A DNA stretch of 64,000 nucleotides from Hexactinellida sp. DTS-2022 (taxonomy: Eukaryota; Porifera; Hexactinellida). This document shows positions 1,129 through 60,438 of this stretch, in pieces. The DNA lies in the NCBI GenBank assembly GCA_028753945.1, contig JAPNXP010000014.1, positions 4,030,001 to 4,094,000 of the forward strand, in the 5' to 3' direction. The notes under the pieces are model-generated. The model did no database searches, was not told the DNA's origin, and saw only the letters and a program-made list of their open reading frames with translations. The position numbers were made by a program, and so were the translations under genes. Position 1 is the first letter of the stretch; each line of letters opens with the position of its first letter.

Positions 1129-1640
1129 ATATACATATAGGAAAACTGTATTATAATATAAATGCATTGATATTTTTCTCCAAACTAAAAAACCTATACC
1201 TGCATTCACCCAATTTAATAAAAATTCATTTAGAAATTTGATGATTTCAAACTTAAAGTATATTGCATACACATTCGATATTCCTAATAAATTTAACGAA
1301 TAGTTGTAAGTGTTTGAAGATAGAAATGCGAATAATAATTGGAATTTGAATAGTTTAACTTTGAAGCGTTACTGAACAATATTGTGCAAATGAATTTTCA
1401 TCAAAGTGGCTGCAGCTCACTGTTGGTATACATAGATAATATCTAAAGACTAAACCACTCTTAAACTTCTGCAGTTTTTTTTTCAAAATGAGCGCACGTA
1501 AATTCATCAGGTATAGGAATTTAATATTACGGAATTTTAATTATACTCAATCACTCGAGTCAATATTATTAGAAATAAACTTTCAGTCTAATTGTGATCA
1601 TTATAGATAAGGCTTTCACTGATATAACAATGGATCAGAA
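1129..1640. other. Intergenic, nothing recognised
   Basis: AT-rich sequence without a credible reading frame or paired termini. It ends at the target duplication of the next element (1634-1640). Confidence 0.5.
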
Positions 1641-2277
1641 CATGAACTACTATAGATAAGGACTGGAAACGAAAATAAAAAATGGACCATGGATGAACTA
1701 GAAGTGCATTCGATATGTTTGCCCATTACAATTGGTAATGAACTTTACACATGAATTATGTTGTTTTTACCTGGATTTGGCTCTGTAAACTAAGTATGTA
1801 ATATTGTCATATATTTGACATCCATTCATTGTAGAAATAAGTTATCCATTAACATACAAGCAATATTATAAGTACTCAAATAACAAAATGTGAAATGAAA
1901 ACAGAATTACTATGCACAGTATTTGTTATTAAATAATTGATTTCAATTTTCTTCCGAATATCTTTAGGTAATGTGCATTTAGTGGATATTACTACCATAT
2001 TAGTACTAAATATCCTCCGAACTCTACAAATATGAGAGATATTCCTTTAAGCAAGATTTATCAACGAATACGTTTTGAGCTAGTCGAATTCGCACTTTTC
2101 TAGAAGGCGGGGGATATGATTGTTTTTTAAAGCTTGATTTTAATCAAACTTGATTGATATCTCCAACAATACCACAATTGATTCAGTTTCAATATCTGAA
2201 GGCCATTTAATAGAACCACGATCAATATATACAGATCTTACAAGGTCATATTTCGTAGCCTCTGTAATCTCAATATA

Positions 2278-3190
2278 ATCTGGTCGTTGAAATCCCAAAA
2301 TGGGTCATACCTAGAAAAAATTCATACAAAGCGTATTTTAGTATCATTAGAAGCGGAATTTTTCGTAGAATAACATATCCAAAATCCGTTATGGGGAAAT
2401 TTTTTTACACGGGTGGCAGTGTCGGCCATTTCATAGTAAATCGCCGACATTTTCGTTACTAACTTTCTCAAATCAATTCTAATCAACTTATAATCAGCAT
2501 ATTTGTACTCAGCGTAAAATTTCCAGCAATTTGATATATCACATGACAACATTTGGAAGATTTTTTCCATAGCAACGCTGGAATGTATCAAAAATATGTC
2601 AGGAATGTGCGAACATTCCATTCTCAAATTGTGTGCCTATCCAATCTAGTGACCCCTCGTTCAACTCCACTAGTATAATTATACACATATCGACCCTCTA
2701 AAATGGGATTTGACGAGATTTAGCTGAAAATCTTCAATATTAGGTTTATCTCGATTAATCTCATTAAATCCCATTTTAGAGGGTCGATATGTGTATAATT
2801 ATACTAGTGGAGTTGAACGAGGGGTCCTAGATTGGATAGGCACACAATTTGAGTATGGAATGTTCGCACATTCCTGACATATTTTTGATACATTCCAGCG
2901 TTGCTATGGAAAAAAATCCTCCAAATGTTGTCATGTGATATATCAAATTGCTGGAAATTTTACGCTGAGTACAAATATGATGATTATAAGTTGATTAGAA
3001 TTGATTTGAGAAAGTTAGTTACGAAAATGTCGGCGATTTACTATGAAATGGCCGACACTGCCACCCGTGTAAAAAAATTTCCCCATAACGGATTTTGGAT
3101 ATGTTATTCTACGAAAAATTCCGCTTCTAATGATACTAAAATACGCTTTGTATGAATTTTTCTAGGTTCAACCTTCCAACGACCAGACTA
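2278..3190. repeat. Large fold-back inverted repeat inside element D
   Basis: Two arms of roughly 440 bp (about 2278-2720 and 2757-3190) are inverted copies separated by about 40 bp. Each arm carries the same 84-101-residue open frame pointing outward from the centre (2322-2627 minus, 2901-3155 plus), which makes a real protein unlikely because the frame is simply duplicated by the palindrome. The outer edges read ATAATCTGGTCGTTG and its complement. A transcript would form a long hairpin. Confidence 0.8.
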
Positions 3191-3756
3191 ATATCCTTGT
3201 TTCAGTAAGTAGTTGATCGTTGAATATAATGATGGCAGTTAGTGGTTTCAAGATAATAAGAGCAACCACAACAGATTGGAGAACATGAATGTCGAGGTCG
3301 ATAGAGCTTAGATCATGAATAACTTCAATATCCTGGTCGCAAGAAAATGAATTATTTCCATCTGTTGTTGAAGAAAGTGTGGATAAATTGATTAAGAAAA
3401 ATTATAGGTTTAATTAAGCAGAACTGTGGAGTAGATGGATTTGTCAAATCCATAACTGGGTTTAGGCCAAGTTGACTCTTTAATACTATAGATTAGGTCA
3501 TGTGATATTAAGCATCGCTCATCATTCAATATAAATCCCAAATAGGTGCTCTATTGGGTAATGGGTATTCTGGAGTTATAGCTAAGAACATTCTCATAAC
3601 CACAATTAGAGTGAGCTGTGAATTGGTTAATGGCAGAGCAATACAAGATTGGGGAAAACTATAACCTTTGAATTTTTGTGCGCTAAGTTTATCATCCTTT
3701 CCAATTGTTGAACTCCATCGCTCAAGCAATTTACAAATTAATTCAAGAAACCCAAA

Positions 3757-4578
3757 CACAGTGGGCAAACAAGTGGAAATTGAGCATTTTTCGAGGGCCT
3801 CAGATTGACTCGATATTATTGAAATCGTTTTCAGCATACATGAAAACCTAAAAATCCAATTTATTGTGCTGAGAAAAATTCGAGATCAAGAGTTATGTGT
3901 AATGAGATCATCATGTTACAACAATTCTAAAAAAAGCAATTTTTGTGGATTCAGAATTGCAGTATCAAAGTCGTACAAAATTCAACAAATTATATTATGT
4001 TGATGAAATATTAAGTTATCTTTATCATTGTCATTGGCATTGTATGAAATCAATGTAACATGAATGCATTTTAACTTCTTATATAGTCTAAAATTATAAT
4101 ACATTCCTACCAGAATTTTTATGATTCGGACGCATTCACTAATTTCCAATATTGTTCAAGAACTTTTGAGAGCAATCATGAGCAATTGGTTTTTACATTT
4201 TAAATGAAAGGTTATGATGATACCTTCAAATTAAAAAGTGTTCTAGATGCGCGAAAGGGCGCGACTGGGGTCATCTAATGACTTTTAAACATAATATATT
4301 AGGATTTTAACTATTTTTGAAAAATTATATCAGGTTCAAGAATCATAATCAATGATCATGGTTGAACAATAAATTTTTGTTAACAAACCTAAAATATAAT
4401 TTATGACTAATTTATCATTAATCGTCTAGAACTGCGTTTAGGAGACTACATATATAATTTTTGAGATTGCCATTCAGTTTGCAGGTACCGATAACCTATA
4501 TGTCAATAATACTTCATTATATTCTATCTAGCATAGTTTTTCCTATTTCCACTTACACCCCTGAAAATGCCCACTGTG
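3757..4578. mobile_element. Miniature element with CACAGTGGGCA ends, copy 1
   Basis: It starts CACAGTGGGCAAAC and ends in the inverted form TGCCCACTGTG. The last 110 bp match the last 110 bp of a second copy at 30484-31640. The flanks CCCAAAC and GCCAAAC (reading the terminus as ACAGTGGGCA) are a possible 7-bp duplication with one mismatch. No coding capacity; the 103-residue frame on the minus strand at 3526-3837 straddles its edge and is a chance frame. Confidence 0.7.
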
Positions 4579-5499
4579 CCAAACGCTATGATGTCTAGAA
4601 TACTCTTCATTCAAACGCACATGTTTAAGAGGAGTATTTATCGTTGAATACGCCAAGTGCTAGATAAATTTCAGAACTAAACTTGTGGACCAACATACAT
4701 TACTGAGGTAGTGAGCTTACTTTATAGTAGAAAGTCGTTCTTCTTTGTACAATAATCGAATATTATTAAACTTAGCTTCATTCAGTTTAGTAGTCAAATG
4801 AGTGAAGGATAGAGTAACGTAACATCAATGATTCAATGTCCAAGTTTAGCCAATTGTTTCTTATCAACTTTATTGTGTCCAAATCAAACAATATATAGAG
4901 CTCTCTCTGGACAAGTTGGGTGTGGAACTTGAGGAAGTAATGTATTCTTCCGCTCTAAGGTTGTGGATACAAATAATATCTTGTATTCTTGGAGATATCA
5001 GTCCATGGAGAGCTCTACTCCATTTGGCTTTGATATCACGTGAAACTTCGGCAATCTGAAAACTGTGGTACTAAGGTAACCTCTGTAATTTGTCTTCCAA
5101 ATACAGAACGTGTGCTAAGTATAACAACGCGTTTGACTCATATAAACTAGTTAATATAGAAAAAGTAAAGAAATAAGGAGTAAATGCATAAAAGAATTGG
5201 GTAACAATTATCGCTTACAAAATCCCGTACAAAATTTACATTCATACACATAATACAAAAACAAATATATATACTCAAATATAGTTTCAATATTTATGGG
5301 TCATTAATAATACCTTAATTCTAGACACTTAAAATGCATTTCCAGTCCATTTTTAGTGTCGAATCCAGCTAAAAACAACATAATTCATGTGTAAAGTTCA
5401 TAACCTATTGTAATAGGCAAAAATATCGAATGCACTTCTAGTTCGTCCATGGTCCAATTTTTTATAGTCATTTCCAGTCCTTATCTATAGTAGTTCATG

Positions 5500-5843
5500 A
5501 TCAGAAGAATAAATATCTTCTAAGGTGTGGGTCGAGACTTGATTAAATTAAAAAATCACATGACAATGCCCAAATAAGTAAAGTATGCTGTAAAATACAA
5601 GAGTTATTAAAAATTAAAATATTAGGAGTCATTTGGAAAAGTTTATAGATAATATTCATACGATTCTGTCCATAAAATAATAATTAAACATATCATACAC
5701 AAATATGTACAAGTTCGGTTCTATCTTTAAAAGCAAGAATAAAAATTTATTAAATTAGTATATGCCAAAATTATAAAGAGCTAATAGCTGTAATTATTGT
5801 ATATTAGGCCATATAAACTAAATAATTTGTTTATCATCCCCGT
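5500..5843. other. Intergenic with repeat debris
   Basis: The 7-bp duplication of element D is followed by a fragment of the GGTGTGGGTCGAG repeat family. From about 5810 there is a stretch also present at 38455-38640 and 13509-13680; it is interrupted at 5844 by the next hAT element and resumes at 5998. Confidence 0.45.
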
Positions 5844-5997
5844 CAGAGGCGTAGCCAGATTGCGGCACTTGGGCACAGGCCGCACCCAAAAAGAATTGTG
5901 CCCACTAAAATGCCCATTAGTATAACACTATAGAGCGAAATGACGCAACCATAATCTACCAGTGCCGCACCTTCATGCAGGCCTAGCTACGCCTCTG
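5844..5997. mobile_element. hAT-type miniature element, 154 bp
   Basis: The ends are CAGAGGCGTAGCCAG and the inverted CAGAGGCGTAGCTAG. Perfect 8-bp duplication ATCCCCGT (5836-5843, 5998-6005). Confidence 0.9.
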
Positions 5998-10520: not shown

Positions 10521-11049
10521 TGCAAGTTCGATCGATTCTTTTTAATTTGATTTTAATTGCTTTGACTTTTTCCTAATTGATTTTATTCTGTGATTTATTT
10601 CATTTTACCCTGCGTACCTTTAACCAGTTTTGAAGAGGTTTCCAAACATAAACCTGAGAACGTTTGCGAGAGCCATCAATAATTTTGTAAGATGACATTA
10701 ACTTGAATGTAGGTCGAATCTTAGTAATGCAAATAAAATTTATACAATATACTACATGCATCGTAATAATGATTATACATAGTCTACTCTATATAAGGCC
10801 TACCATCAAAGCTGATATTTTGCACCAAGGATGAAGTAGTGTACGATATTATTATTGACCCATAGTTATCTACATTTATCTCTGTACAGTTAGAAATATT
10901 TAAAAAATAGTTGGATCAACTTGTTATTGATTTTTGTTAATTTTTAGTATTAATTAATACAAATTCTCCTTCCACCGATATTTTAAGCACTTCCTAGTAC
11001 TATATTTGACTTTGTTTCTCTTTATAGTTAGATTTTTTAAAAATTCTCA

Positions 11050-12932
11050 ATACCGAACTGTTCTACCCCTGGTTGTAGGGGTAATTATACTCCAGAAGAG
11101 CGCGTCCCAATTTTTAAACTTCCAGATGGTCCACCTGAGTTAAGACATGCCTGGATACCTGCTCTCCATCGTGAGGATATTTCTGACCTAAAAATGGTGT
11201 ATGTGTGTGCTAAGCATTTTACGAAGGAAGATATTCAATATTTTCACACGGTACCCAGAGCCAGAGGAGATGGCACATCCTATGAGGTCCCGTGAGGAAG
11301 ACCCAAATTAAATCCTTGCGCTGTCCCCTCTCTCCTTCCTGGTTGTCAGTCTTATTATTCCTCTACCCCTTCAATTAGAATCAAACGAACTCGGTTCTCT
11401 TACGACTCCAAAGAGAAAGATTTATTGAACCAAGCAACTAATCTCAGCTTGAGATCAGAGAACACAGAAATGGAGAAGTTTTGTGTTGACGAGATAAGTT
11501 AGCTTTGATAACAATCCCAACTGACTGGTTAGTTTGGATTCAAACTAATATTTGTGTGAGATTTTATTGCCTAAGATGGAAAATCATAATATTTGTGCAG
11601 ATGTTTCTCTTGAAATATTCTTTTTTATCTGTGAACGGATATATATATGGGGAGTCCATTTCTTTCTCACTTATCTCTATCACTGATATCCGACAAATTG
11701 AAACGATGTATTTACAGAGATTACTCTGAAACTTAGCTCTTCCTCTCAGAAGAAACACCCTCACCATATCTCTAAAGCCAAAGAACATATTGAGGAGGCT
11801 ATATGTAATCTATTAGATAGTGATGATTCAGAATCCAATTGTTCCGATTTGCCAAGATTACAATTTATTCTTGGCCAACTAGAGAATGTGGGTATTTACA
11901 AGAAGAGAAGGAGATATAATGTTATTACACGAATTATGGCCATAGAAACGGATCTGGTTTCTCCTGCTAGTTACAAATTTCTCCAATGTTCAGAATGCAT
12001 TTCTTTTCGACATGTTCACACACTAGAAAAGTTGTACTCTTCTTTTGGGCTGGAAAACTACTCTTGTACTTACCTTAGCCAGGTATCTTCTTCTTTAAGT
12101 TCTCAAGAGAAGAATGTAATTATTCAGATGGATGAGATCCACGTTAACTTAAGTCTGAGGGGTGGGAAGGGTGGGAAAATATTTGGTCCTAACTTATCCC
12201 CTGAATACCCCACAAGAACTGTATTTGCTATCATGGTTTCTAGTTTACACAAAAAATGGTCCTGTATTTCTCGTTTGATACCTTGCGATCTATATCTGCT
12301 GAATACCTTTCGTATAATTAAGTCTTGTATTTTGGTTATCGAATCTTTCGGTTTGAAAGTACAAATTATTTCTAACGACAATTACCCTTCAAACGTGAAC
12401 TTATTCAAGTTATTTTCTCCAACTAAAAAGTTAGAGACTAGTGTACCACACCCTTCTGATAATAAAAGAAAACTCTATGTTACTTTTGACTTTGTGCACA
12501 TTTTGAAAAGTATTCGAAACAATTGGTTGAATCAGAAAGATATTCGGAAAACCTTTCACTTTCCCAACTTTCAGACATTAAGCTGGATTACTGTGTGCAT
12601 CCTGTTCAAGTTTACTCTGCATCTTTTAGTGATGTGCGTCTCCTCTATAATTTAGAGAAAGAATCCTTAGCTAAGTTAGCTCCTACCTTGACTATCAAAG
12701 CTTGTTATCCTTCTGCTATTGAGCGCCAAAATGTGAAACTTGTTATGAAAGTATTAAACGAATTAACTGTTCCAGCTCTGAAGTTACAGAATGAACTCCG
12801 TAACCAAGAAGACCGAAACAATACACACCACTTTGTTGAAATGCTTCTTCAAATTTGGAAACTTTTAAACATAAATTCTCCACTTAAATGTAAACGTTTG
12901 AATGATGATATCTCAAGACCTCTAACATACCT
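11050..12932 (+). pseudogene. THAP/P-type transposase of element A, 5' part
   Basis: The first segment (11050-11295) is a THAP zinc finger. It has the C2CH set NC...GC near the start, then RHAWIPALHRED and VCAKHFTKEDI, ending at a stop. The start codon reads ATA where the sister copies have ATG. After frameshifts, 11849-12655 encodes the catalytic part: IIQMDEIHV (first Asp), IISNDNYPSN (second Asp) and VTFDFVHILKSIRNNWLN, a signature shared with elements B, C and E. A shift at about 12530 moves the frame into ERQNVKLVMKVLNELTVPAL up to PLTYL, where the Harbinger insert begins. Unlike copy C, no introns interrupt the regions before and after the first catalytic Asp. Dead copy. Confidence 0.85.
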
Positions 12933-13430
12933 GGGGCCTTATTCACTAACATTTCTTAAGTTTTGCTTAACTCAAAAACTAAGCAAAACTTAAGAAAACT
13001 TAACGGAAATCTTAGATTATGCTTAACTTTAAGCACAAACTTAAATTTTGTTTAGTTTTCTTAAAGTTAGAATACGTAACGGAAATCTTAGATGCTTAGT
13101 TTTGGTTAAGTTTTCTTAAAGTTAGAAAACTTAACGGAAATCTTAGATTATGCTTAACTTTAAGCAAAAACTTAAGTTTTGATTAAGTTTAACCAAAATC
13201 TAAGAAAAATTAAGTTTTTGCTTAGTTTTGGTTAAGTTTTCTTAAACTTAGAAAACTTAACGGAAATCTTAGATTATGCTTAACTTTAAGCACAAACTTG
13301 AATTTTGTTTAGTTTTCTTAAAGTTAGAATACTTAACGGAAATCTTAGATTTTGCTTAAGTTCTAGTCAAACTTAAGTTTTTTGAGAAAATAATTTTCTT
13401 GTAAATTGCAAGTTTTGGGGATATATATCA

Positions 13431-14934
13431 TAAGCCCTTCGGTCCCGGTCACTTCGCTACGGATGATCAAATCGTTACGCGGTCTTGCTTTTTTCAATGG
13501 ACAGTTAAGGCCATATAAAATAAATAACTTCATTCCCATCTATCCCAATTTTTACCCTCCGTACGGATATATGAATGATTATCTTAAACATAATCATACT
13601 AGATATTAGCTATACTTGTGTAAAGACTCCTAATGTATCAATTTTATATAAGTCTTATATTTTTGAACATTACTTAATTACTTAAGCATTATGAATGCAA
13701 ATTTCGAAATCATCATACTGTTTACCATAGCCTTCTCTAATAAGGCCTACCATTAACTGTACCAGGGATGCGTTAGTGGACGAACATATTTATACACGAT
13801 CTCTATATTGCCGTAACGGTGGATTTTTCCCCCAAGTGATGTATTACATATTTGGAGACCTTCATGTCTTCAGCCCATAGATGTAAAATTTTTGTAGAAA
13901 TATGCACATTTCATGACGTAATAGACGATTAATTGACGAAATTACTCATTCTTTGAGAACCTGTAAATCGTTAAATACTGAACCTTTGATCCAATGATAA
14001 ATATCATGTATTCTTAAGGGTGCTTTACACAAATTGTGAAAAGTTATTCGTGATGATATTGGCAAAAATCTTGAGTTAGAGTGCAAACCATGGATGGCAC
14101 TTTTTTGGTAAATTTTGTCTGTATTTCAAAAACTAACATCGTTACAGCCAAACTACTATAACCATTTGATAGCCTATGCTCCACTTCCTATCCCATTATA
14201 ATACATTCCGACACGTTATCTCTAAAGATTACTACGTAATCATCAATAATAGTACAGTCGAATAGTATATAATATTATTGATGATTACGTAGTAATCTTT
14301 AGAGATAACGTGTCGAAATGTATTATAATGGGATAGGAAGTGGAGCATAGGCTATCAAATGGTTATAGTAGTTTGGCTGTAACGATGTTAGTTTTTGAAA
14401 TACAGACAAAATTTACCAAAAAAGTGCCATCCATGGTTTGCACTCTAACTCAAGATTTTTGCCAATATCATCACGAATAACTTTTCACAATTTGTGTAAA
14501 GCACCCTTAAGAATACATGATATTTATCATTGGATCAAAGGTTCAGTATTTAACGATTTACAGGTTCTCAAAGAATGAGTAATTTCGTCAATTAATCGTC
14601 TATTACGTCATGAAATGTGCATATTTCTACAAAAATTTTACATCTATGGGCTGAAGACATGAAGGTCTCCAAATATGTAATACATCACTTGGGGGAAAAA
14701 TCCACCGTTACGGCAATATAGAGATCGTGTATAAATATGTTCGTCCACTAACGCATCCCTAGTCCAAAAAAACATGTTTAATGGCAGGCCTTATTAGAGA
14801 AGGCTATGTGTTTACCTATTATAACATTTTGAAGATAGTGTATTTCTCAAATGTAAATGCGGTTTTTCCCCCATCCCTTTAATATTATACTGACAAACAC
14901 ACAAACACTCAACAATTAGTTTTAATCATATAGA
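13431..14934 (-). mobile_element. Non-autonomous Helitron H2, carrying a fold-back insert
   Basis: Read on the minus strand it starts TCTATATGATTAAAACTAAT just after an A (14935 complement) and then enters GTTTGTGTGTTTGTC. It ends ...GACCGAAGGGCTTA before a T. An imperfect short hairpin region built on GCGAAGTGACC precedes the end. Its left and right parts align with Helitron H3 at 53809-54866, which lacks the fold-back insert and so shows the empty site. No Rep/helicase gene. Confidence 0.7.
13736..14808. mobile_element. Fold-back P-like element, 1073 bp
   Basis: It begins CATAGCCTTCTCTAATAAGG and ends in the inverted form. A perfect 7-bp duplication TGTTTAC flanks it (13729-13735, 14809-14815). 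Almost the whole element is two near-identical inverted arms of about 515 and 535 bp around a 23-bp loop (about 14251-14273). The arms differ mainly just inside the termini (about 13766-13775 versus 14763-14780). The terminal sequence matches the ends of P-like element A, whose transposase presumably moved it. No gene; any transcript would be a long hairpin. Confidence 0.9.
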
Positions 14935-15329
14935 TATATATTTTATTTGGTGAATAAGTTTGTATCCATGACTCCCAAGTTGAACCTATTTTAAATATTT
15001 GTACATTACTTATGCAGTTATGCCAATTAAGTCGTATTATACTTAAATTTACATGAATATCTTAAACATCCTGATACTTCGCACGAGTTTCTGTCTAATG
15101 ATCAATAAATATTATTCTCAGAAAAATTGCAGACCCTAGAAGACGAATACTAAATTTATCTCGCATGTAGTAATATGATACTATAAGTAATTATAGAATT
15201 ATATATTTATATTATAATAGACTATATATTACTCGAACTAGTTAATGTATAATATCTTGTGCAGCAGCAATTTTCTGACAATTTACTCAGTATTAGGTAT
15301 AGTTAACGTAAATTCTATATATTCTTTTC
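14935..15329. other. Harbinger 5' non-coding region
   Basis: AT-rich sequence between the Helitron insertion and the transposase start. It probably contains the element promoter, but no motif could be supported. Confidence 0.4.
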
Positions 15330-16374
15330 ATGGCATCTGGACTAAGTTTGATTGAGATTGAAATTGAATTAATACAAAGCAGCTTACGTAGACAGCGAGT
15401 TTTTAGAGATCGACTAAACCCCCTGGATGCATATTCTGACTTTGAGTTTATCACTAGGTACAGAATTACTCAGTATATGTTCCTCGAACTCCTGGAAAGG
15501 ATTTCTACGAAACTAAATCGCACCACAGCTCGTTCTTACCCAATTGCTCCGTAGCTCTACAATTTTTAGCTACCGGGACATTTCAGACGGTAGTCGCATC
15601 CGCACATGGGATCTCCCAAACATCTGTATCCAGATGCGTAACTGACTAACTGCTGTATGTGAAGCATTAACAGCTATTGCTCCTACATATATTCAATTTC
15701 CAAATACATCTCGACAAAAAGTAATTCAAAGATTCTTCCTCAAAAAATACAAGTTTCCACTAGTTCTCGGTTGTATTGATTGTTCACATGTTTCCGTCCT
15801 TGCGCCATCATCGAATGAGGATATCTATGTTAACCGAAAGGGATTTCATTCTATTAACATACAAGCGATTTGTGACCACGAATTTCACTTCATTAATGCT
15901 GTTGTTAAATGGCCGGGATGTACTCATGATGCTTTCATATGGCGACAATCAGGCATAAATCAAAAGATAACAACTGGTGAGATCGAAACTGTACATGGGT
16001 GGTTCTTGGGTGATAGTGCTTATGGATTAAAACAAAACCTAATGACTCCTATAACTTCTCCAATTACTCCTGGGCACAGAAGGTATAATCGGGCTTTTCT
16101 TAAAGCTCGCCAAACCATTGAGTGTACCTTCGGAATATGGAAGAGCCGTTGGAGATCAATGGATAAAACAGGAGGAACCCTTTGTTATAGCCCTGAAAAA
16201 TGTTGCAAAATTATATTGGCTACCATGGTGCTGCATAACATGTGTATTAGCCATGGCCTGTTAGCCGATTTTGAAATGTTGATGGCTGATCCTATCTCAG
16301 ATATAGTCCCACCGGAACCTTCAGAAAATGGATTAATAATGAGAGAATCAATAATATCAGAATTTTTTGCTTAA
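15330..16374 (+). pseudogene. PIF/Harbinger DDE transposase (HARBI1-like), two frameshifts
   Basis: An RNase H-fold endonuclease that, with the Myb-like partner encoded next door, would excise and insert the element. The N-terminal part (15330-15554) has RFRD/RLNPLDAYSD and YRITQYMFLELLERI. A frameshift at about 15551 leads into ALQFLATGTFQTVVASAHGI and VSRCV. A second at about 15640 restores a long frame to 16374. The catalytic triad is visible: D in LGCIDCSHV, D in FLGDSAYGL and E in QTIECTFGIWKSRW. The closing motif ATMVLHNMC is also typical. Apart from the two shifts the protein is full length (about 345 codons) and well preserved, so inactivation looks recent. The first ATG at 15330 gives the expected N-terminus. 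Confidence 0.9.
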
Positions 16375-16522
16375 TTATGTTGTTGTATACGACATTGAAT
16401 TTATACTAGTAAAGTAGGTAATAGTATAATTACAAAGTTATATTATAGAATACTATTTATTGGAGAACAATTAGCGAACTATCTATCTTTGATTACTTGG
16501 TTAATTAATTAGTAGAAATCCA

Positions 16523-17337
16523 TTAATAATCGGTAGAAGGAGGATACATTGATGGATGAGGAGGAAAATTCTTCACATAGGGATTTGAAACATAAGACCC
16601 GACTGCTGCTACAGGATGCTCTAAACCTGGCTGGGTTAACGCAGCTAACAGTCTGTTTTGGTTCGCGAGTATCTCGGGGATTGTTTCCATCATTATATCC
16701 CCAATTCGTTTCAGGCTGTACTCGATTTTCTCCATTCTATGTTATATATTCTTCATGCAATCCAATTTCTGCTGTTCTTTTTCGAGGAGAATATGTTTAG
16801 TTTGAGTGAGATCACTTGGTGATAAGCTATGTGAGGAGTATTTTCTCTTGCGATTGGGCAGTACCTCAAACTTCGGCTGGTCATCATCAGTTGAGAAGAT
16901 TGGACTTATTGGCATCTGCTGGTCAGACTCAATGGAAACTTGAGAGCTGATATCTATTCCAGAAGCAATGCCCTCAAACACTTCTTTTCCCTTAATACTT
17001 CTAATCTTGTCCTCCAATAGTGTTAACTCGGCTCCAGGGGGACCTCCGCCAGTTTTATGAATTGAAGCAAGCTTATCGGCGATTAGTGGTTTATGTTTGC
17101 TCAAGAGGTTAGACCACTTTTTAGTATATCATCTCTAGTTCTTGTTACCCCATGTAGAGATGATAACTTAGAGGCGACTTCCTCCCAAACCAAAGTCTTC
17201 TCTTCAAAGGTAAATGAAGCACCTAAGCTGCCGAATAACTGCGACTTGTTTTCCTGGATTATGTCCACCAAGGAATGAATTTCTTCGGTGGAAAAACGAA
17301 CGGGTTTTGAGCGGGTTTTGGATTTTTCGAGGGTCAT
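16523..17337 (-). pseudogene. Harbinger Myb/SANT-like DNA-binding protein
   Basis: This is the second Harbinger protein, thought in this superfamily to bind element ends and bring the transposase to the nucleus. From the minus-strand ATG at 17337 it encodes RFSTEEIHSLVDIIQENK and LVWEEVASKLSSL (Myb/SANT-like helices). A frameshift near 17104 leads into DKLASIHKTGGGPPGAEL, the conserved HKTGGGP end of the domain. An acidic linker follows, then QTKHILLEKEQQKLDCMKNI. An in-frame TAA at about 16742 precedes EKIEYSLKRIGDIMMETIP, a helical tail. One frameshift and one stop make it a pseudogene. It is divergent to nothing and convergent with the transposase, tail to tail with about 150 bp between. 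Confidence 0.8.
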
Positions 17338-18098
17338 TTGGTTAAGAATGCAATTATGTAATTATTGTTAAATTGTTATTTATATATCCGGTGTTTAAAT
17401 TGTATATGTTCGTTAGTTGAAGTTAGTGATAGGTTTGAAATATAATAACAGTTAAGTCAACGTCCGGTATGACTTAAGTTTTAAGTCAAGTTTTAGTCAG
17501 AGTTAAGAAAAATTTTAGAAAATTCTAAGAATTTGTCTAAAGTTAAGCAAATTCTTAGTTTTTGCTTAAGTTTTCTCTAGTGAATACCAACTTAAGTCTG
17601 ACCATAGCCTACTTTAAATACAGCTGGACATGCTGCATAAACATCGAAAAAATAGGAGTCCAGTTTTATTATCTTCAGTTTAGATCTACTAAGCGTCTTA
17701 CATTGTATACATTTAACTATTCCCAGGTTTCAATATATGAGGAATCTTTTGCGACTACTTATAAAGTTCTCAGTAACCTTACTATGTGGTTTAGGCGCCA
17801 AATAAATGATGACGTTAGCGTATTTAAAATTGAGCATTTAGTATGGATCTTTTTGCATAATGTTATATGTTATGTATTTTTCTGGTGGACATCTTTGAAT
17901 TGGTTAATACCCCGCCCAACTTAGCACACTAATTATAGAAGAATCAATGCAACTAGCCATTTTCCATAAACCATACAAAATAGGAGTCCAGTATTTTAAT
18001 TATTATCGAACCACAATTGTCAACTATTTAACTTATCTATTAGTGTATATATGGCATTTTTTGACAAGTTTTCATCTTAGTTGGTAAATTTGGTTATA

Positions 18099-18148
18099 CA
18101 GTCAATTCCGCTTAATAGAGCCACCGGTTAATAGAGAGGAGTTGACTG
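18099..18148. mobile_element. 50-bp pogo-like miniature element
   Basis: The ends CAGTCAATTCCGC and GAGTTGACTG lie between TA dinucleotides. A longer relative (100 bp) is at 57268-57367; both share CCGCTTAATAGAGCCACCGG and sit upstream of a P-type transposase. Confidence 0.6.
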
Positions 18149-18212
18149 TAGTTATTTTCTGAAGCCCTTTTATTCATCTACGTATATTGATTCTTTTAGC
18201 TAGTATATTCTT

Positions 18213-20830
18213 ATGCCTAATAAATGCGCAGTTGTTGGGTGTCGCGTCGGCTATTGTGGTGGTCCTAGGAAGCCCTTATTTCACTTCCCAAAGAAAGTTT
18301 CTCTACAAGAAAGGTGGATCGTGTTTTTAAACCGAACTAGTTACTCTCCAACTTCTAATTCAACTATATGTATAGATCATTTTGAAGGAAAGTATATAGT
18401 TCAGCATCCCAACAGACCGCGGCTCGACTATTCACTTGATCCTATTCCTTCTATTCATCCATCATCTATCCCCAAGAGTCAAAGGGTGATACCACACAAA
18501 TCTAGAAAACCTCCTGTAAAAAGAATATATCAAGAAGATGAATTCCTTCTATTTAAAGCTAAATTCAAATTCAATACTCTGCAAGATATATCCTTATTCC
18601 TAACCAATTCAAATGAATACAAAGAATTGAAGATAGACATCAACGAGTCTCATGTTGTAGCTTACCGTCTTAACATTCAGTCTGGGATAGTGGTGGTCAA
18701 GGAATGCATATACATCGATCGAAATTTTAATCTGCAGCTTAGCTATGATGGGATTCCCCTTCCACTCCCACCGTACATTAGGCAATCTCCTTTCTGTCAA
18801 ATTCGATCACTTGACATGCTAACTAACCTCCCCAATTATTGCCTGAATTTTTCTTCTCAGGATTATGAAATCAATGTTATAAAAGAGTTAATCAAACTTA
18901 CATACTACAGTCCTAAAGGGAGACCGAAGTACTCTTCCAGTGTATTACGCTTCGCTTTACTATTGCGGTACACTTCAAACTCTGGATACAATTTCCTTAA
19001 GAAACACTTGCCTCTTCCGAGCGAAACTCTCCTAAAAAGCCTAAAATCAAACTCTATTCAAGGTGGTAATGCTTTATCAGGATTGAGAGACAATGATCTT
19101 ATTGGTAGTGATGTTGTTTTGCTACTCGATGAAATGCATCTACAACAACAGGTATTCTTATTTATGATACTTATTACCTAATACCTATACAATTTTGAGT
19201 TTAACTATATCCTTATATAGGTTCAATTTGATGGCAAAACCATTATTGGATGTGATGGAGAGCTGGAAATGTATAAGAGCATACTCTGTTTTATGGTAAT
19301 TTCTCTAAAGAAAACGATCCCGTTTATACTAAAGGCAATACCTATTGTCAAACTATCATCAACCATTATTTCTGATGGGATTTTAAACTGCATCACTATC
19401 TTAACCCAAGCTAATTTCTATACTCGTGCTGTAATTGCTGATAATCATCGAAGTAATATCAGTGCATTCCAACGCCTGCTAAACAATTATTCGATTCAGG
19501 AGAAAAGCAATTGTATATTAATCCAAACGATACTGTTAAACACATTTACCTGATGTTTGACACAGTACATCTTATTAAAAACATAAGAAATAATTTGTTA
19601 GCTTCTCGATATTTTAAAGTTCCTCAGAGTCACCTCTTATTCCATAATTTACCTCATACTTTCCCGGCTGGTGAAGTTCATTGGTCACGTCTACATTCAA
19701 TCCATTCACTTGACAACGTACAGTCTGCACACCTTAGACTAGCTCCAAAAATAAATTACTCAGTTCTTCATCCTGGCAACAATAAACAATCTGTTCCCTT
19801 GGCATTAGCTATTTTCGAACCTACCACAACTACGGCACTTCTCCAATACATTCCCAACGATACTGTCACGCCAGCATTTCTGAAACTTTTCTATTCATGG
19901 TGGCTGATAGTAAATGCAAAGGAAAGGTATCATCCTAATCCTGTCGGTAGCTCCTTGATATCGAATGACGATAAAATTGATTTTTTACATAAAATGAATG
20001 AGTGGCTTATCGAATGGAGAGATACTAAACAGCTTGGTTTAACAAAACAGACATTCAATGCTCTAATTTGCACTAATAATGTTATAGCTGACTTGTGTAG
20101 TGATTTGCTAGAGAGTGGCTATCAATTTGTTCTAACTGGAAGATTGCAAACAGATCCACTTGAAAGAAGATTTTCACTGTATCGGCGGATGAGCGGTGGC
20201 CGCTTCTTAGTTAGCTTGAAAGAAGTCTTACAATCGGAATCTATAGTCAAGGTGAAAATTTTACTCAAACAGAATTTAAAAATTGAAGATTTTGCAGTTT
20301 TATCTACAGAGAAAGAAACTGAAATCCAACAGTTCGTTGGAGAGTTGAATATGGATAATTTTGATCATTTGCAGTTATCTGAAAGTGCAAGGCAAGTGGC
20401 TGTTTACATCGCTGGTTATATCACTAAAAAGCTGTTAAAGATTACACACTGTGACAACTGTCTTGTTCGACTGAAAGAAGATCAAGTTACAAGCCCATAT
20501 GTTGATACTTTAAACAGAGGTGGACTTAACTTACCATCAATGTCACTCTATTATTACGTCGAAGCTGCATTTTGTGTAATTGAAGCGAATCAACATGTGA
20601 TTTGTAGTTCTGGTCTCCCTTTCAAAGTTTTGGCATGTAGAATTTTGGATTCATTGTATTCTGGTTGGGATTCGGAATTCTCTTGTGTCACTCACAAAGC
20701 CCATATTTGCAATATCGTCAATAACAAAGTTGCTAACGTTTACTTCTCCAATTTGTCAAAAAAGATTAGCCATACACAACGTAAGCACCAAGTTGAAGCT
20801 TTCAAGAGTCGTCAACGCCAAAAATTATGA
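18213..20830 (+). pseudogene. THAP/P-type transposase of element B, one frameshift
   Basis: Exon 1 (18213-19151, 313 codons) starts with a THAP domain: KCAVVGC, ERWIVFL (the invariant Trp) and ICIDHF complete the C2CH zinc site. It ends VLLLDEMHLQQQ with the first catalytic Asp. A 69-bp intron (19152-19220, GT...AG) joins to VQFDGKTIIGCDGEL. Exon 2 carries AVIADNHRSN (second Asp). A frameshift at about 19508-19511 moves into the last 440 codons, with MFDTVHLIKNIRNN, LQTDPLERRFSLYRRMSGGR (the presumed catalytic Glu region) and YIAGYITKKLL...CDNC, a probable zinc site. The intron position just after DEMH is close to intron 2 of copy C. Joined length would be about 850 residues, similar to THAP9/P transposases. 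Likely inactive as it stands unless the shift is a sequencing error. Confidence 0.9.
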
Positions 20831-21469
20831 ATATTATAGTATATTTTTAGAAATATACTATCTCATAACATTTAGACTGGAATTCATTGTACAGAGTGAA
20901 TTAACAATATCTCTCTCTCAATTTGTTACTTACAATATATATACAGTAGAAGTTATTATATTATATTTTTGTATGTCATCATTTATTTGGCGCCTAAACC
21001 ACATAGTAAGGTTACTGAGAACTTTATAAGTAGTCGCAAAAGATTCCTCATATATTGAAACCTGGGAATAGTTAAATGTATACAATGTAAGACGCTTAGT
21101 AGATCTAAACTGAAGATAATAAAACTGGACTCCTATTTTTTCGATGTTTATGCAGCATGTCCAGCTGTATTTAAAGTAGGCTATGGTCTGACTTAAGTGT
21201 TGCTTAAGTGCTGATTTAAGTTTAAGCAAAAACTAAGAATTTGCTTAAGTTTTAAGCAAATACTAAGAATTTGCTTAACTTTAAGCAAATTCTTAGTATT
21301 TGCTTAAGTTTTGTTTAGTGAATACCAACTTAAGTCTGACTTAAGTGTTGCTTAAGTACTGATTTAAGTTTAAGCAAAAACTTAGTTTTTGCTTAACTTT
21401 AAGCAAAAACTAAGAATTTGCTTAAAGTTAAGCAAATTTTAAGTTAAGAAGTTTAGTGAATAAGGCCCC

Positions 21470-22427
21470 AGGACGAACGATTTTCATTCTTAGCTTGTGT
21501 TGTGTTGTTATTTGGTTAGAGACTTGGCTGGCCTTGCCAGGAAATGTAGGAAAGTTAAGTAATCAAACGTTTACCAGTTTTAAACATGCTTGTACTGTAT
21601 TGCCTCAGATAACGAAGCATTTAACTGGATTTTGTGGATTTAACTATCTTTTGACATCATTTTTACAGACAGATCCATTAGAACATCACTTTGGCCTATA
21701 TCGTATGTGATGTCAGGTTCAAACTATCATATCTCGTATCTTCAAATCCTTGAAACTGAACGCCGTCTCAAGTTATCCAACATATTAAAGATTTTTGCTT
21801 TACAACAAGATTGTGGCTTATATTCAATTCAGAGATTTATTGATTCATACTCATCCTTTGATACGAATAATGGCGATGAAATCGATGTCCAACTAGTCTG
21901 GGATGAAATTGATGATCTAACTTCCATTGAATGTAGTTTACAGACACTTCAGTCATTAGCTTTTATTGCTGGTTTTGCAGTACATAATTATATTTTAAAA
22001 ACTCAGTCATGTCATGTTTGCATTGATCTTTTGACCATTGACAGAGACTATATCTTTGATGAAGATTCACAATCACAACCCGAGTTCAGGCTTTTGCAAT
22101 TAACTGACCGTGGTGGCCTAAAGTATCCATCTGAGTTTATCCTTCGAATCTATAGTAACTTTATGGAAGACGCTATTTGCAATTGAAAGCAAAGAAAACT
22201 TGTTGGCGATATTGATGCAAGGATCATCCAGAAAAATTATTGTGGAAGTAACCTTGATATTCTTAGAAGAGACTGATGCGATTGCCAAATTGAGTTGCAT
22301 TTCTTGTGGTGTCTATTTTGACTATCCTAAAAAATCTATTTTCACTTGCGCCAACTGTTTACTAGCTAACAAGGTTAATAATTATAACTCAGATGTTGCA
22401 TCTAAGGTAAAGAAAAGCGAAAACTGA
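21470..22427 (+). pseudogene. THAP/P-type transposase of element A, 3' part
   Basis: This continues the frame of 11050-12932 on the other side of the Harbinger insert. DERFSFLACVV, then after a shift WLETWLALPGN, QTFTSFKHACTVLP and LQTDPLEHHFGLYR run into MMSGSNYHISYLQIL with a further shift at about 21707. The end has SLAFIAGFAVHNYILKTQ, CHVCIDLL, LTDRGGLKYPS and CANCLLANKV, matching copy C residue for residue in many places. A stop at about 22183 and a frameshift separate the last block (22200-22427). Together the two parts cover the whole protein. Confidence 0.85.
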
Positions 22428-22685
22428 AGTTCTCACATTAATGAAATACACCAGAAGGCTACTCTTCTATTATTATTATTGTTATTATTATTGTTATTTG
22501 AACCCACATTATTATTTATATATTCTTATCATTGTTGTTAAGTATGCAATAAAGACTCAATAGAGAAAATCTATTAATTTACTAGAATAATTTATTATAA
22601 CAGATTAATTTCTAAAATGAATCTCATCGTACACTACTTCATCCATGGTACATTTGATGGTAGGCCTTATATAGAGTAGGCTATG

Positions 22686-23484
22686 TATTATATATAGTAC
22701 GTAAAAGTTAGTAAACCGATTGTCCAACAGGAAGCCAAATGTTGTCAAACTGACAAAAGTGGAATTATTTTAAGAAAATGTATGGATATTTGAAATCAAG
22801 AACATCGATCAAACTGTTTTATTAACAACAGTTTGAATATCAAGAAATATGTGTCAGTTATTTATTGCGTGCATTAATTTGGTGGGACTAAATCCAGCTA
22901 TGGAAATAGTTATTGAAATAAAATAAATTATTTCAAATTATCAAACTCTTCACTATGGCATGTAATAAAACTATATGAAATTACTCGACCATTATGTAAA
23001 TTTGAAATATTAGATTGGGTCTGCTTTTTCAGGACAAGCTCTAAATTTTTTTTGTTGAGTAGTAGAAATAGTGCATCTCAAATCATATTCTCAGTTAATA
23101 TCAGTCGAGCGGTTTGCTTGCTCAAGCTGCGTGGCTTGCGTATAATATATAAGATACCACATAACAAAGTATTTATCAACACGAATAGTTAAAGAATAGT
23201 AGAATGAGGACAGTCAAATTAAAGAAAATAATCAATTGTTAACTAATTGACAGAAATCAGCAAAGGAGGAAAATGTACTTTTAATATTGAGGAATTTTTA
23301 ATCAAATCATAATAATAACAAATACGTATTCAAAAGTATCGAATTATAATTGCGTAGAAATTGTGGTATGTAAAAGAGGAACATTCAATTATTAAGAGAT
23401 CTTATTGCCCCATGTAAATAGCCCTGCGGCCCCACCGGTTGGGAACCACTTAATTTTAACAAAGCTATTTATGACAGAGTAAAA
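22686..23484. other. Intergenic, nothing recognised
   Basis: AT-rich sequence after the right duplication of element A. No frame over 60 codons and no paired ends seen. Confidence 0.5.
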
Positions 23485-39810: not shown

Positions 39811-39880
39811 CATAGCCTACTATACATAAGGCCTCACAGTAACAATTGAAATTTGGACCAGGGATGAGGTCGCCGATCGA
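39811..39880. mobile_element. Solo P-like terminal repeat
   Basis: CATAGCCTACTATACATAAG followed by GCCTCACAGTAACAATTG and GACCAGGGATGAGGT matches the ends of element A and the fold-back at 13736. No inverted partner with a matching 7-bp flank was found (left flank GTATAGT). Confidence 0.6.
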
Positions 39881-53808: not shown

Positions 53809-54866
53809 CGAGCCCTTCGGTCCCGCCGCTTTGCGACTGATCGGTTATACGCACCTCAAGTTGACGGCCGCTACGCAGCCTTACTCCTCACTGAACCTTT
53901 GATTATATAGCCAGTAAATATTCGTTGTAGGCAGTGTTTTTTTTAAGGATTTGCTTAGAGGGCCCTACCAACAATTAGAGGCCCTCACCCCAACAATTAG
54001 AGGCCCTCACTCTACATTTCATGATATTGAGTACTTAGCACGTTAAAAATTAGAGGCCCATTGAGAAAAATTAGAAGCCCATTTTGGGCCTCTAATTTGC
54101 CTTAAAAAAAACACTGGTTGTAGGTATATACACCCTTAACTACCATTTTCCATACTTCTGACTTGTTTACCTATATACCTATTGAAAACTAACTTCTGGG
54201 TTGATTTTGAATTTCATTAATTTGTTTACCTATTTGTGTAAACAACAACCACAAATATTCATATTAGAATTTGTAAATGTGAAATTAGAAATCAACATCC
54301 CATACCTCCCAAGTTTGAGATGGTCCAATGCGGGTCACCCACCTACTCCCCCCCTCACTACATAGATTCGAGGGTATGTGGATTCGTTTTGGAGATTAGT
54401 TAGGACTCTTATATACTTAAAATTAGATTGGTAAAGTAATTTTGACATATTTATGTTAGTTTCTATAGGAAAAAGACAAGTTTTACTACCTATTTACTGA
54501 ATAAGAGTAACTAAAATGAAAAAAATAATCTTAATAATGTTCTGATTTTAGAGAATTGTGCTCCAGAAAATTATTTTTCCAATGCGGGTTTAATAGCCGT
54601 TGAACCTCATTTCTAGCATGATTTTGAATTTCATTAATTTGTTTACCTATTTGTGCAAACAACAACAACAAATGTTAATTATAGACATTTATAAATGCCA
54701 AATTCGAAATCAGCATACTTATTTACTTATTATAACATTTGAAAGTTAGTTTTATATCCCAATATTAATTGCGGTTTATATTCTCCCATCACTTTAGTTA
54801 ATTAATACAATCCGGACAAACACACACACACACACACACACAACAGAAGAGTTTAAATAATATAGA
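53809..54866 (-). mobile_element. Non-autonomous Helitron H3, 1058 bp
   Basis: Minus strand: after an A, TCTATATTATTTAAACTCTT, a GT run and GTTTGTCCGGATTG; it ends GGACCGAAGGGCTCG before a T. Hairpin GTCGC/GCGGC lies 16 bases from the end. The same family as H1 and H2. An internal direct repeat (TTTCATTAATTTGTTTACCT) occurs at 54213 and 54630. A hAT miniature element (53932-54116) is inserted. Confidence 0.75.
53932..54116. mobile_element. hAT-type miniature element, 185 bp
   Basis: CAGTGTTTTTTTTAAGG and inverted CAGTGTTTTTTTTAAGG. Perfect 8-bp duplication GTTGTAGG (53924-53931, 54117-54124). Internal tandem AACAATTAGAGGCCCTCAC units. Confidence 0.9.
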
Positions 54867-56726: not shown

Positions 56727-57267
56727 GTACTATTTTGAAAGAGGAAATGTTGGGTGGTCGAATACTTATGTCCGGGTACTGTATCAAGGGTACAAATCTG
56801 TATATTAGCTAGATTGCAACGTCTCTTTGGTGGAAGTCATAGAATATCAGGGATGCCAACCTCTGAAACCAAAAAGCTGGAGGTTTGCATTTTTTGGCGG
56901 GAGTTTTACCAAAAAAGCGGGAGGTCGTAGATTAAAAATCGGGAAAAAAGCGGGATACTCAAAATATATGCTGTTTCTTTGAATTTATCATGAATATAAC
57001 AATACAATCAGACGTAAACTACGTATAAAAGGACTGGAATCGACAAAAAATTGGACCATGGATGAACTAGAAGTGCATTCGATATTTTCACTAATTACTG
57101 TTTCTTATGAACATTAGATTATATTTATGTAATTTTTAACCGGATTCGAACCTAAAAAATGTCAAAAATACAATTTTGAGTGTAATTGTTTAAGGTATTA
57201 TTAGCAACCCATAAGCTTTAAAACAAAACCTGACTACGTTATCTATTATTTTCACAAAATTGAAATA

Positions 57268-57367
57268 CAGTCGACTCCGCTTAATAGAGCCACCGGTTAA
57301 TACATTTCTCCTCTTATTGGGTCTAGTAACCTGGTCCCGAGGTGACTCTTTTAAGCGGAGTCGACTG
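57268..57367. mobile_element. 100-bp pogo-like miniature element
   Basis: TA-flanked, CAGTCGACTCCGCTTAATAG and inverted CAGTCGACTCCGCTTAAAAG. Confidence 0.85.
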
Positions 57368-57499
57368 TATGCCTGAATTTGGATTTTCTAAGCGATTTTG
57401 TTTGTTCTTGGTGCATTTCTGTTCATTATTTACTTTTCTCTTTAATTCTCTTTAATTTATACCTACAAATATTTATATTAGTTTACTACGTAACTCGTT

Positions 57500-60183
57500 A
57501 TGCCCAATACTTGTTCAGTATTCGGATGCAAGTCCAATTACAGAGGTCATCCCAGTGCTACTGTATTTAAATTGCCGAGCGCCCCGCGCGATTTGAAAGA
57601 TAAATGGATTAGAGCTCTCCATAGGGATAGATATTCATTTGTATTCATCACTTCAGATAGGAAGACATTATACGGATTGACCGGACTGTCCAAGCTGATG
57701 GTACCTGTACTGAAACACCACGAATTAGGCCAACTTATCGTATTAACGCAGTACCCGTTATTTTCCAAGGCTGCCCGTCTTATTTTACTTCAACTGCTCA
57801 GAAAACAAAGCGTCTTAGTCGAGAATCTAAGGAAGAAGAAAACTTCGCTAAAGGTCTTCACGATAGTATCGTTCAAAACCAACAAGATCGTTTACAATTC
57901 GCTTTGGATAACTTTGATGATCTTAAAATGAAGTTGCCTCGTTTACATCTTAGCCAAGACTGGGTGGCGTGGTACTCTTCCAGTAGCACCTTGCAGATCC
58001 TACAGCTGGAATTATTTAACAACACTATTATAATTCAATCTACACTAACAATTCAGTCAGACTTAACAGTTTCAGCCGTTACTCGCCAATACCAAATACC
58101 CTTGCAGTTCAATCGAATAACCGACTTACGACAAATTGACTCCCTAATTGATAATATCTTAAATTTTGAGCCAAATCCAGAGTTACTTGAGTCCAGCCTT
58201 GTTCTTGTAAGTATCAAGGAAGCAGCCACTAAATTGCAATTGTCAATATCAATGTTAGATGCTACTGAACAGACTGACGAGGAACACTCAAGTACACATT
58301 TATTACCTCTCCTCCAGTTTATTACTTATCAACTTGAAAACTCACTAGTTTCCGCTAAACAACGAAGATATAACGTAGTTACTCAGGTTAGTATTTTCTG
58401 ATTTCATTAATTTCATTATTCACCTTTTTATTTTAATCTAGACGGTTGCATTGAAGGCAAATCTGATCTCACCAGCGTGCTATCGTTTTTTTACAATCCT
58501 TGGATTGTCTTAGCTTATTCTTCCAACCACAAGGTCACTTCGTGCTTTATCTTCGTGCATAGGATTGGACAGTGAATATTTACACTTACTAAATAATTTA
58601 ACTTTACATTTTGTAAAAGAGATCGCCATGTTGTTCTAAATATGGACGAAATCCACGTTTCATCAGAAATCTCCTATCAAGGTAATAGGTGATATCACAT
58701 ATAGTAAATGTATATATTTATGCTTACATTTCTTATTCTATTGTTTAGGTGGAAATATTATTGGTGAGATCGATCCTACTACTCCAACTAAGAAAGTTTT
58801 TGCCTTGATTATTTCTTCTTAATAGAAAAAATGGTCACAAGTTGTGAGGTTATTTCCATCAAATTTTTCTACTGCTGAGGAACTCTTCCCAATCGTAAAT
58901 CTTGTAATTAATGATATTGAAAAGTGTGGACTATTTGTTGAAGTACTCATAACAGACAATTATCCAATGATTGTACGTTTATTTAAATTATATTCTTTTG
59001 ACCAGAAGACGTTACTTCCCGCTGTTCAACATCCAACTTGCCCAGAAAGAAAACTCTTTATTTTGTTTGATTTCGTACACATAATTAAGTCTATAAGGAA
59101 CAACTGGTTAAACGTGAAGGACTATGATCTAACGTTTAAATATCCAGACATGCTTCTGTATCCTTGGACCTCTATTTCTGCTACAGAACTGAATGAGGCA
59201 AAATTTAATGATATTCGATTATTGTACCAGAGCGAACAACATTCTACAGTAAAGCAAGCTCACAAGCTTAGTTCTAAGGTATGTTGGCCCACAAGTTTAG
59301 AACGTCAGAACGTGAATCTAGCACTTCGCGTTTTCAACGAGTCCAATTTTGCAGCTCTTAAAATTCAAAACGATTTACGACAACATTCTAAAAAACGATT
59401 TACGACAACATTCTCCAGAATGATCCAATAGAGCACCAATTTGGCCTATATCGAATGATGAGTGGCGCGCAATATCACATCACCTACTCTCAGATATTGC
59501 AGAGTCAACGTCGCCTGAACCTTTCAAATATTCTTAAGTTATTCTCATTACAACAAAACAAAAGCGAGCTTACCCTTAAACGATTTATACAAACCTTTTC
59601 TCAAACTTCTGATGAGTTCATTGATGTGCCTTGCGATCCTTATATTGAAGCTATACATGATCTAACCTCTGTCAATCTGGACATTCATGTTCTCCAATCT
59701 ATTGTGTTTTTTGGTGGTTACGCTGTATACTCGTATCTTAAAACAACTAGTTGTCACTATTGCAATCAGCTACTTACTGAAAACAAAGAAATTGAGATTC
59801 CAGACGCAAAAAAGTATGACCTTGTAAGATATATTGATCGTGGTTCTTTGAAGTGGCCTTCTGATATCGTAATTGAGTCAATAGTGATACTGTGGAAAAT
59901 ATTCATTAAAATTGACGAAGACAAAGTTTTAAAGAAACTGTTCTACTCCTCGCCTTCAAGAAAGGTGTTAATTCAATTAGCTGAAAACGTATCGGTTGAA
60001 ATGTATAGTGAGAATTGGAGGAATAACTGTCCTGGTTGTTTTACTTCTGGGTGGAGTTTGTTAAGGAAAATACTTAGCACATGTGCTAATTGCATATTAG
60101 CCAACAAAGTTCGGAATGTAAACTCTGAAATAAATTCTGGAAAGAAGGATATCCGGAAAATGAAGAAATTTAAATCTATTTGA
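57500..60183 (+). pseudogene. THAP/P-type transposase of element C
   Basis: Starts at ATG 57500 with the THAP motifs NTCSVFGCKSNY and KDKWIRALHRDRY. A frameshift at about 57640 leads to CIHHFR, an in-frame stop, EDI. The linker (57904-58386) includes RITDLRQIDSLIDNILNFEP. Two short introns are visible: 58387-58441 (55 bp) and 58682-58748 (67 bp). Between them lie a stop, a frameshift, and LNMDEIHVSSEISYQG with the first Asp. After the second intron, KVFALIISS is followed by adjacent stops TAA TAG where copy A reads LH. LITDNYPMIVRLFKL (second Asp), LFDFVHIIKSIRNNWLN and LERQNVNLALRVFNES follow. At 59360-59420 a 20-bp stretch is duplicated and about 100 residues are missing before NDPIEHQFGLYRMMSGAQYH. 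The zinc-rich end CHYCNQLL...CANCILANKV is intact. Dead. Confidence 0.9.
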
Positions 60184-60438
60184 AATATTCCTTATGTACT
60201 GTATGCGTAATACTAATTCCTTATCTTGTATGTAAAATCGTTATACTTTCACTGAATTAACTTCAATGAAATGTTAATGATATTCACTTTGCTTTTACAG
60301 TATAATCCAGTTAAATATATAATCTAATGTTCATAAGAAACAGTGATTAGTGAAAATATCGAATGCACTTCTAGTTCATCCATGGTCCAATTTTTATTGT
60401 CGATTCCAGTCCTTTTATTACGTAGTTCACGAATCAGA

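Follow-up and report, generated by a model that had tools for sequence, protein, structure and literature searches.

The window analysed here, a stretch of 64,000 nucleotides from the glass sponge Hexactinellida sp. DTS-2022 (contig JAPNXP010000014.1, positions 4,030,001 to 4,094,000), contains five insertions that are P-superfamily elements (Table 1). Four of them lie between perfect 7-bp direct repeats, as a sequence-only reading of this DNA had claimed and as the reading of the flanks confirmed, and the fifth, at 10778-22685, has the GATTATA/TATTATA flanks that it had also reported (7 bp with one mismatch).

Table 1. P-superfamily elements of the window, with their transposase pieces and flanking repeats (positions within the window).
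Feature	Position	Strand	Evidence
Left ATCAGAA copy	1634..1640	.	flank reading
P-superfamily element, CATGAACTAC ends	1641..5499	.	termini, DNA similarity
Right ATCAGAA copy	5500..5506	.	flank reading
Left flank GATTATA	10771..10777		
Broken clade I P-superfamily element	10778..22685	+	flanks, ORFs, domain scan
P-type transposase piece, RNase H N-terminal domain	11702..12655	+	PF21787 E 1.9e-4
Left TGTTTAC copy, 7-bp duplication	13719..13725	.	flank reading, single copy in empty site
Non-autonomous foldback-like P-superfamily element, 1083 bp	13726..14808	.	termini match 10778-22685
Right TGTTTAC copy	14809..14815	.	flank reading
Left GTCTGAC copy	17596..17602	.	flank reading
Clade II P-superfamily element, CATAGCCTAC ends	17603..21185	+	termini, tree
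Transposase N-terminal part, THAP + Tnp_P_element HTH	18204..19181	+	PF05485 E 1.8e-8, PF12017 E 4.4e-6
Transposase C-terminal part of 17603..21185	19457..20830	+	groups in clade II
Right GTCTGAC copy	21186..21192	.	flank reading
C-terminal piece of 10778..22685 transposase (probable)	21644..22186	+	ORF position, by-eye match to clade I C-termini
Right flank TATTATA	22686..22692		
Left AATCAGA copy	57006..57012	.	flank reading
Decayed clade I P-superfamily element, CGTAAACTAC/CGTGAACTAC ends	57013..60431	+	termini, tree
THAP domain piece	57494..57931	+	PF05485 22.3 bits, cut-off 23.9
RNase H / GTP-binding insertion piece	58826..59431	+	PF21788 23.0 bits vs 24.8; PF21787 19.3 vs 24.6
Right AATCAGA copy	60432..60438	.	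flank reading

The element at 10778-22685 is interrupted by two of the others, 13726-14808 and 17603-21185, and by a gene for a DDE_Tnp_4 transposase nested in it (15646-16374; PF13359, E 1.2e-33), which we take to be of the PIF/Harbinger type. Its RNase H piece scores 22.2 bits (cut-off 24.6), and the product is 55% identical over 275 aa to that of another locus of this genome (L014); the frame at 21644-22186, without a match in the Pfam scan, is probably the C-terminal part of the same transposase. The element at 17603-21185 has terminal inverted repeats (TIRs) of about 211-216 bp, and the C-terminal part of its transposase, which alone found no match in the Pfam scan, has at least 104 matches in its own genome. 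THAP/P-type transposases had been attributed to two elements, which is correct for 17603-21185 and less firm for 57013-60431, where none of the three domain scores (THAP, RNase H and GTP-binding) reaches its Pfam cut-off; a third carrier in the window is 10778-22685, whose broken P-type RNase H domain falls just short of the cut-off. The domain scan recognised no transposase domain in 1641-5499, which is related at the DNA level to 57013-60431, and four of four further copies of its family fetched from the genome have exact 7-bp repeats. The smallest element had been placed at 13736, 10 bp inside its true start at 13726 (CATAGCCTTC...). It is composed of an outer TIR (CATAGCCTTCTCTAATAAGG) and internal inverted arms of about 366 bp, contains no open frame of at least 110 aa, and sits inside 10778-22685, the ends of both being alike.

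Several other features of the window touch on these elements. A P-type left end (CATAGCCTACTATACATAAGGCCTCACAGT...) is present at 39811-39870, with the same start as an end in L036, and the terminus scans of the window found no partner end for it. A subterminal motif near GGACCATGGATGA lies some 30-60 bp inside the ends (about 1680-1701, 22634-22655, 57049-57070 and 60371-60392); it is common to families with differing outer ends and may be a transposase (THAP) binding site. Three small inverted-repeat elements with CAGGG, CAGAGG or CAGTG ends (141-385, 5844-5997 and 53932-54116), presumably hAT-type MITEs, are flanked by exact 8-bp repeats (GGACTAAT, ATCCCCGT and GTTGTAGG), and the same scan is therefore able to detect repeats of 8 bp.

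Duplication length was scored in 66 elements of the genome (62 and 4 added), compared with 928 preliminary candidates found with just the transposase domain, so other clades may differ; other transposase groups, with open frames of 905-1021 aa, lie outside this survey. The families with CATAG, CATGG or CRTRAAC ends, to which every window element belongs, have 7 bp in 39 of 44 copies (37 exact, two with one mismatch), the remainder being two copies with 8 bp (L128, and L167 with one mismatch), one with 9 (L043) and two with no recognisable repeat (L048 and L042). This is not so in the CACAG family, which combines CACAG ends with a P-type transposase of about 1000 aa: here 9 bp is found in 20 of 22 copies (19 exact, one with one mismatch), 8 bp in one and no recognisable repeat in another (L113), and the 9-bp length holds in all three CACAG TIR variants examined. 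Over the whole set, the family-typical 7 or 9 bp is present in 59 of 66 elements, one-mismatch repeats included, with 8 bp in three, a stray 9 in one and none in three; when only copies scored 7 or 9 are counted, the two groups stand at 39:1 and 0:20 (Fisher p 5e-15, with insertions treated as independent). Because single 8- and 9-bp copies occur in the 7-bp families and one 8-bp copy in the CACAG family, the length is modal, not absolute, as it also is for Drosophila P and 1360 (PMC3276498). The sequence-only reading had proposed a constant 7 bp over several subfamilies, to be checked by tabulating flank lengths; this was borne out for several TIR types and two deep transposase clades, but the CACAG sister clade makes 9 bp, and strays of 8 and 9 occur. 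L043 was considered as a second 9-bp lineage and discarded as a stray, since its four further copies comprise two exact 7-bp repeats, one 8-bp repeat with a mismatch and one without a recognisable repeat. L113/L114 (G000:C1:6280003-6283496) is a CACAG element with perfect ends and unrelated flanks, as expected from recombination between copies.

The scored set covers part of the end pairs listed by pattern searches. Both ends were located in 15 of the 20 loci fetched in a first batch (not in L036, L050, L053, L062 and L063) and in six of nine in a second (L018 and L033 through the terminal motif; not in L028, L034 and L032, the last of which showed no left end when re-examined). Pairs taken from terminal-pattern searches are free of direct-repeat bias; elements from scans for direct repeats beside inverted repeats (L005, L009, L047 and L066 among them) are biased towards having a repeat. 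As a control, the left flanks of 62 elements were paired with the right flanks of other elements; among these 3782 mismatched pairs, exact repeats of at least 7 bp appeared in two, neither of 9 bp (one-mismatch repeats of at least 7 bp in 12). The 7-bp flanks in the window are thus unlikely to be due to chance, given two of 3782 exact control pairings against four of five window elements.

The exact 7-bp sites (n=35) show a palindromic preference in symmetrised counts, with G at.54 (dyad -3), T at.51 (dyad -2), A at.59 (dyad -5) and T at.79 (dyad -6), and A reaches only.20 at dyad -1. In the exact 9-bp CACAG sites (n=19), positions 6 to 8 from the dyad are mainly A/T (38, 37 and 35 of 38). Counting outwards from the duplication, both groups favour A/T at the second and third base, the preference at the second being weak in the 7-bp sites (58/70), and A/T is enriched at dyad 6 (66/70 in the 7-bp set, 38/38 in the 9-bp set, uncorrected for the number of positions compared). 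The idea that target motifs are positioned from the dyad was considered and dropped, because a rule counted from the cut fits equally well.

Duplications of 7 bp have precedents in this superfamily. In Drosophila, 1360 was found to duplicate 7 bp at 274 of 279 sites (98.21%) and P to duplicate 8 bp at 1,207 of 1,226 (98.45%), a disagreement noted by the authors in 2012 (PMC3276498), and Galileo makes 7-bp duplications, with 8 bp in three copies (PMC4168063). 1360 (Hoppel) resembles the elements described here in duplication length and in its palindromic target, GTTNAAC, where the duplication is bounded by G...C (PMC3276498), and our long unbroken open frames recall its intronless gene (after the title of a reference in PMC3276498). 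Unlike them, it belongs to a different host and is not known to have a 9-bp sister, the likeness being one of duplication length and target motif (PMC3276498). Galileo shares with them the predominance of 7 bp with rare 8 (PMC4168063), long TIRs and a foldback-like structure, but prefers GTANTAC, whereas the motif found here agrees with it in G at dyad -3 and T at dyad -2 and lacks A beside the centre, and the Galileo TIRs can be far longer. The zebrafish element Pdre2/THAP9 has a TIR, CATACCTGTCAAC, that starts like CATAG, but that TIR is 13 bp long and the duplication 8 bp (PMC10983969). It may then be asked whether the 7-bp elements are simply members of the known 1360/Galileo sub-lineage, with nothing new about them. 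This reading has a real chance of being right, somewhat short of even: both known elements make 7 bp (PMC3276498, PMC4168063), the G at dyad -3 and T at dyad -2, with their mirror images, resemble GTTNAAC, and the TIRs, long or of foldback form, are reminiscent of Galileo. Applied only to the window elements, this reading is close to correct, and what it leaves aside is the sister clade, which makes 9 bp. The suggestion of a P lineage with a different stagger stands in that these are P-superfamily elements with 7 rather than 8 bp, but 7-bp lineages had already been published (1360 and Galileo; PMC3276498, PMC4168063). What this genome adds, and it is modestly new, is the 9-bp sister clade; a literature search, with Repbase and most subscription journals outside its scope and hence weak as evidence of absence, found no 9-bp P-superfamily lineage.

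Unoccupied sites bear directly on the length. For ten elements, the flanks were joined around a single copy of the duplication and used to search the genome, and three of the ten found a full-length match among the best 40 candidates scored. For 13726-14808 a paralogous site at G000:C16:1973936-1974125 contains TGTTTAC once and no terminus base; the alignment has no gap at the junction, and its two substitutions lie elsewhere. Such an alignment, which the first reading had named as the way to refute its own claim, fits 7 bp. The site for L026 (GCTGCAC) is gapless and 168/170 identical, with two substitutions, and also gives 7 bp, and the site for L018, a CACAG element, gives 9 bp (gapless, 170/170 identical; at L018 itself the right-hand copy of the duplication has one changed base). 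L018 sits in a common repeat, its joined flanks having at least 38 matches of 98-100% along all 170 bases among the best 40 candidates; one of these matches was read letter by letter. Two 7-bp sites and one 9-bp site are therefore in agreement with the flank readings. It is very improbable that the elements really duplicate 8 bp, like Drosophila P, with one base wrongly assigned to the terminus: the C that follows the right TGTTTAC copy is also the first base of 13726-14808, so that TGTTTACC can be read as eight, and the C16 site, which itself reads TGTTTACC, is by itself compatible with this, but the 8-bp reading requires an asymmetric element, fails at the other three perfect sites of the window and is contradicted by the L026 site and by the flanks of other elements. 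The duplication of 13726-14808 is 7 bp, not 8.

Membership of the P superfamily was examined with a profile built from 14 transposase rows of the window and its genome, which matches the Drosophila P transposase (6p5a) with E 7.7e-26 over the RNase H and insertion domains. The elements share with P the THAP domain, the RNase H domain, perhaps with a GTP-binding insertion, and three acids, which we take to be catalytic, that align with those of P; their ends are of the CAT...ATG type, like the P terminus. Four genome proteins were scanned (L014, L021, L055 and L058), and PF21787 exceeds its cut-off in all four and THAP in three, L021, of the 9-bp clade, reaching 22.2 bits against 23.9. The HTH domain (PF12017) is above cut-off in the clade II protein of the window and in L058 and is not listed for L014, L021 and L055; the GTP-binding domain (PF21788) is listed for none of the four. 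In the profile, the corresponding insertion region of P is aligned. At least 150 PF21787 matches exist in the genome (the best 150 of the 928 candidates were scored), and 46 of the 150 listed lie in open frames of 865-1042 aa. The elements differ from Drosophila P in that P duplicates 8 bp (PMC3276498) and is remote in sequence; they are not P elements in the strict sense, defined by an 8-bp duplication. Even less probable than a misread eighth base is that the 9-bp elements come from another superfamily with 9-bp duplications, such as Mutator-like elements (maize Mu duplicates 9 bp; PMC2774946), since P-type transposase genes lie between CACAG pairs spaced about 3.37 kb from each other, and L021 matches PF21787 with E 9e-15, has its THAP domain just below cut-off and belongs to a group placed with clade I in the tree.

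The maximum-likelihood tree comprises 56 rows and 364 columns and is rooted on Drosophila P; L027, L040, the N-terminal piece of 17603-21185, frames under 200 aa (L010, L035 and L036) and short rows (L008, L029 and L031) were left out, the third CACAG variant (four elements) is absent, and the window's own locus appears a second time as row L037. Clade II (30 rows, support 97%) includes 14 rows with a scored length, thirteen of 7 bp and L043 with 9, and 16 without one. Within clade I (25 rows, support 90%) there are two groups: one of 7 bp (12 rows, support 91%; six scored, all 7), into which the pieces of 10778-22685 and 57013-60431 fall, and the CACAG group (13 rows, support 94%; twelve scored 9 and one 8). 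In this tree the 9-bp family is thus a supported clade within a 7-bp radiation. As 7 bp is found on both sides of the deepest split, a single change from 7 to 9 is the simplest history, in which 7 would probably be the older state and 9 derived once; because there is a single distant outgroup, the root and the polarity are weak and the direction is tentative.

In DDE transposases, the duplication corresponds to the distance between the two points of strand transfer. For the P element these lie 8 bp apart (PMC7776569). The window elements would move by cut-and-paste, their transposase joining both ends to target strands 7 bp apart and so producing the 7-bp duplications. We consider it very likely that in this genome the strand-transfer distance is characteristic of the transposase clade, with 7 bp in two deep clades and 9 in one monophyletic sub-clade that has CACAG ends and the transposase of about 1000 aa; the length would reflect how far apart the two active sites lie in the strand-transfer complex. 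Two insertions characterise the 9-bp rows. The first, of 12-14 residues, follows closely on the first catalytic Asp, and the second, of about 9-12, lies near the C-terminus. They are present in at least 90% of the 9-bp rows that cover these places and in at most 10% of nine rows of the 7-bp sister group (five of the nine without a scored length). Neither is present in the L058 row, and the first is missing from the P row. The 12-14-residue insertion in the RNase H domain might, as a hypothesis, contribute to the wider spacing in the 9-bp clade, and it is a candidate rather than the cause because it is one of many differences at about 38% identity. That the shift from 7 to 9, which adds a base to either side of the dyad, came about through this insertion is a doubtful proposition; if true, active-site spacing would be evolvable in the P superfamily and the loop responsible could be named.

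The length of the duplication usually serves as an invariable mark of a transposon superfamily. In this genome, two sister lineages with many long open frames differ by two bases, with little scatter, and together P (8), 1360/Galileo (7) and the CACAG family (9) would form a 7-8-9 series in one transposase fold for which a strand-transfer structure is available. The determinant of the stagger could thus be tested by swapping one loop, and annotators should not discard or misfile P-type elements for lacking 8-bp repeats.
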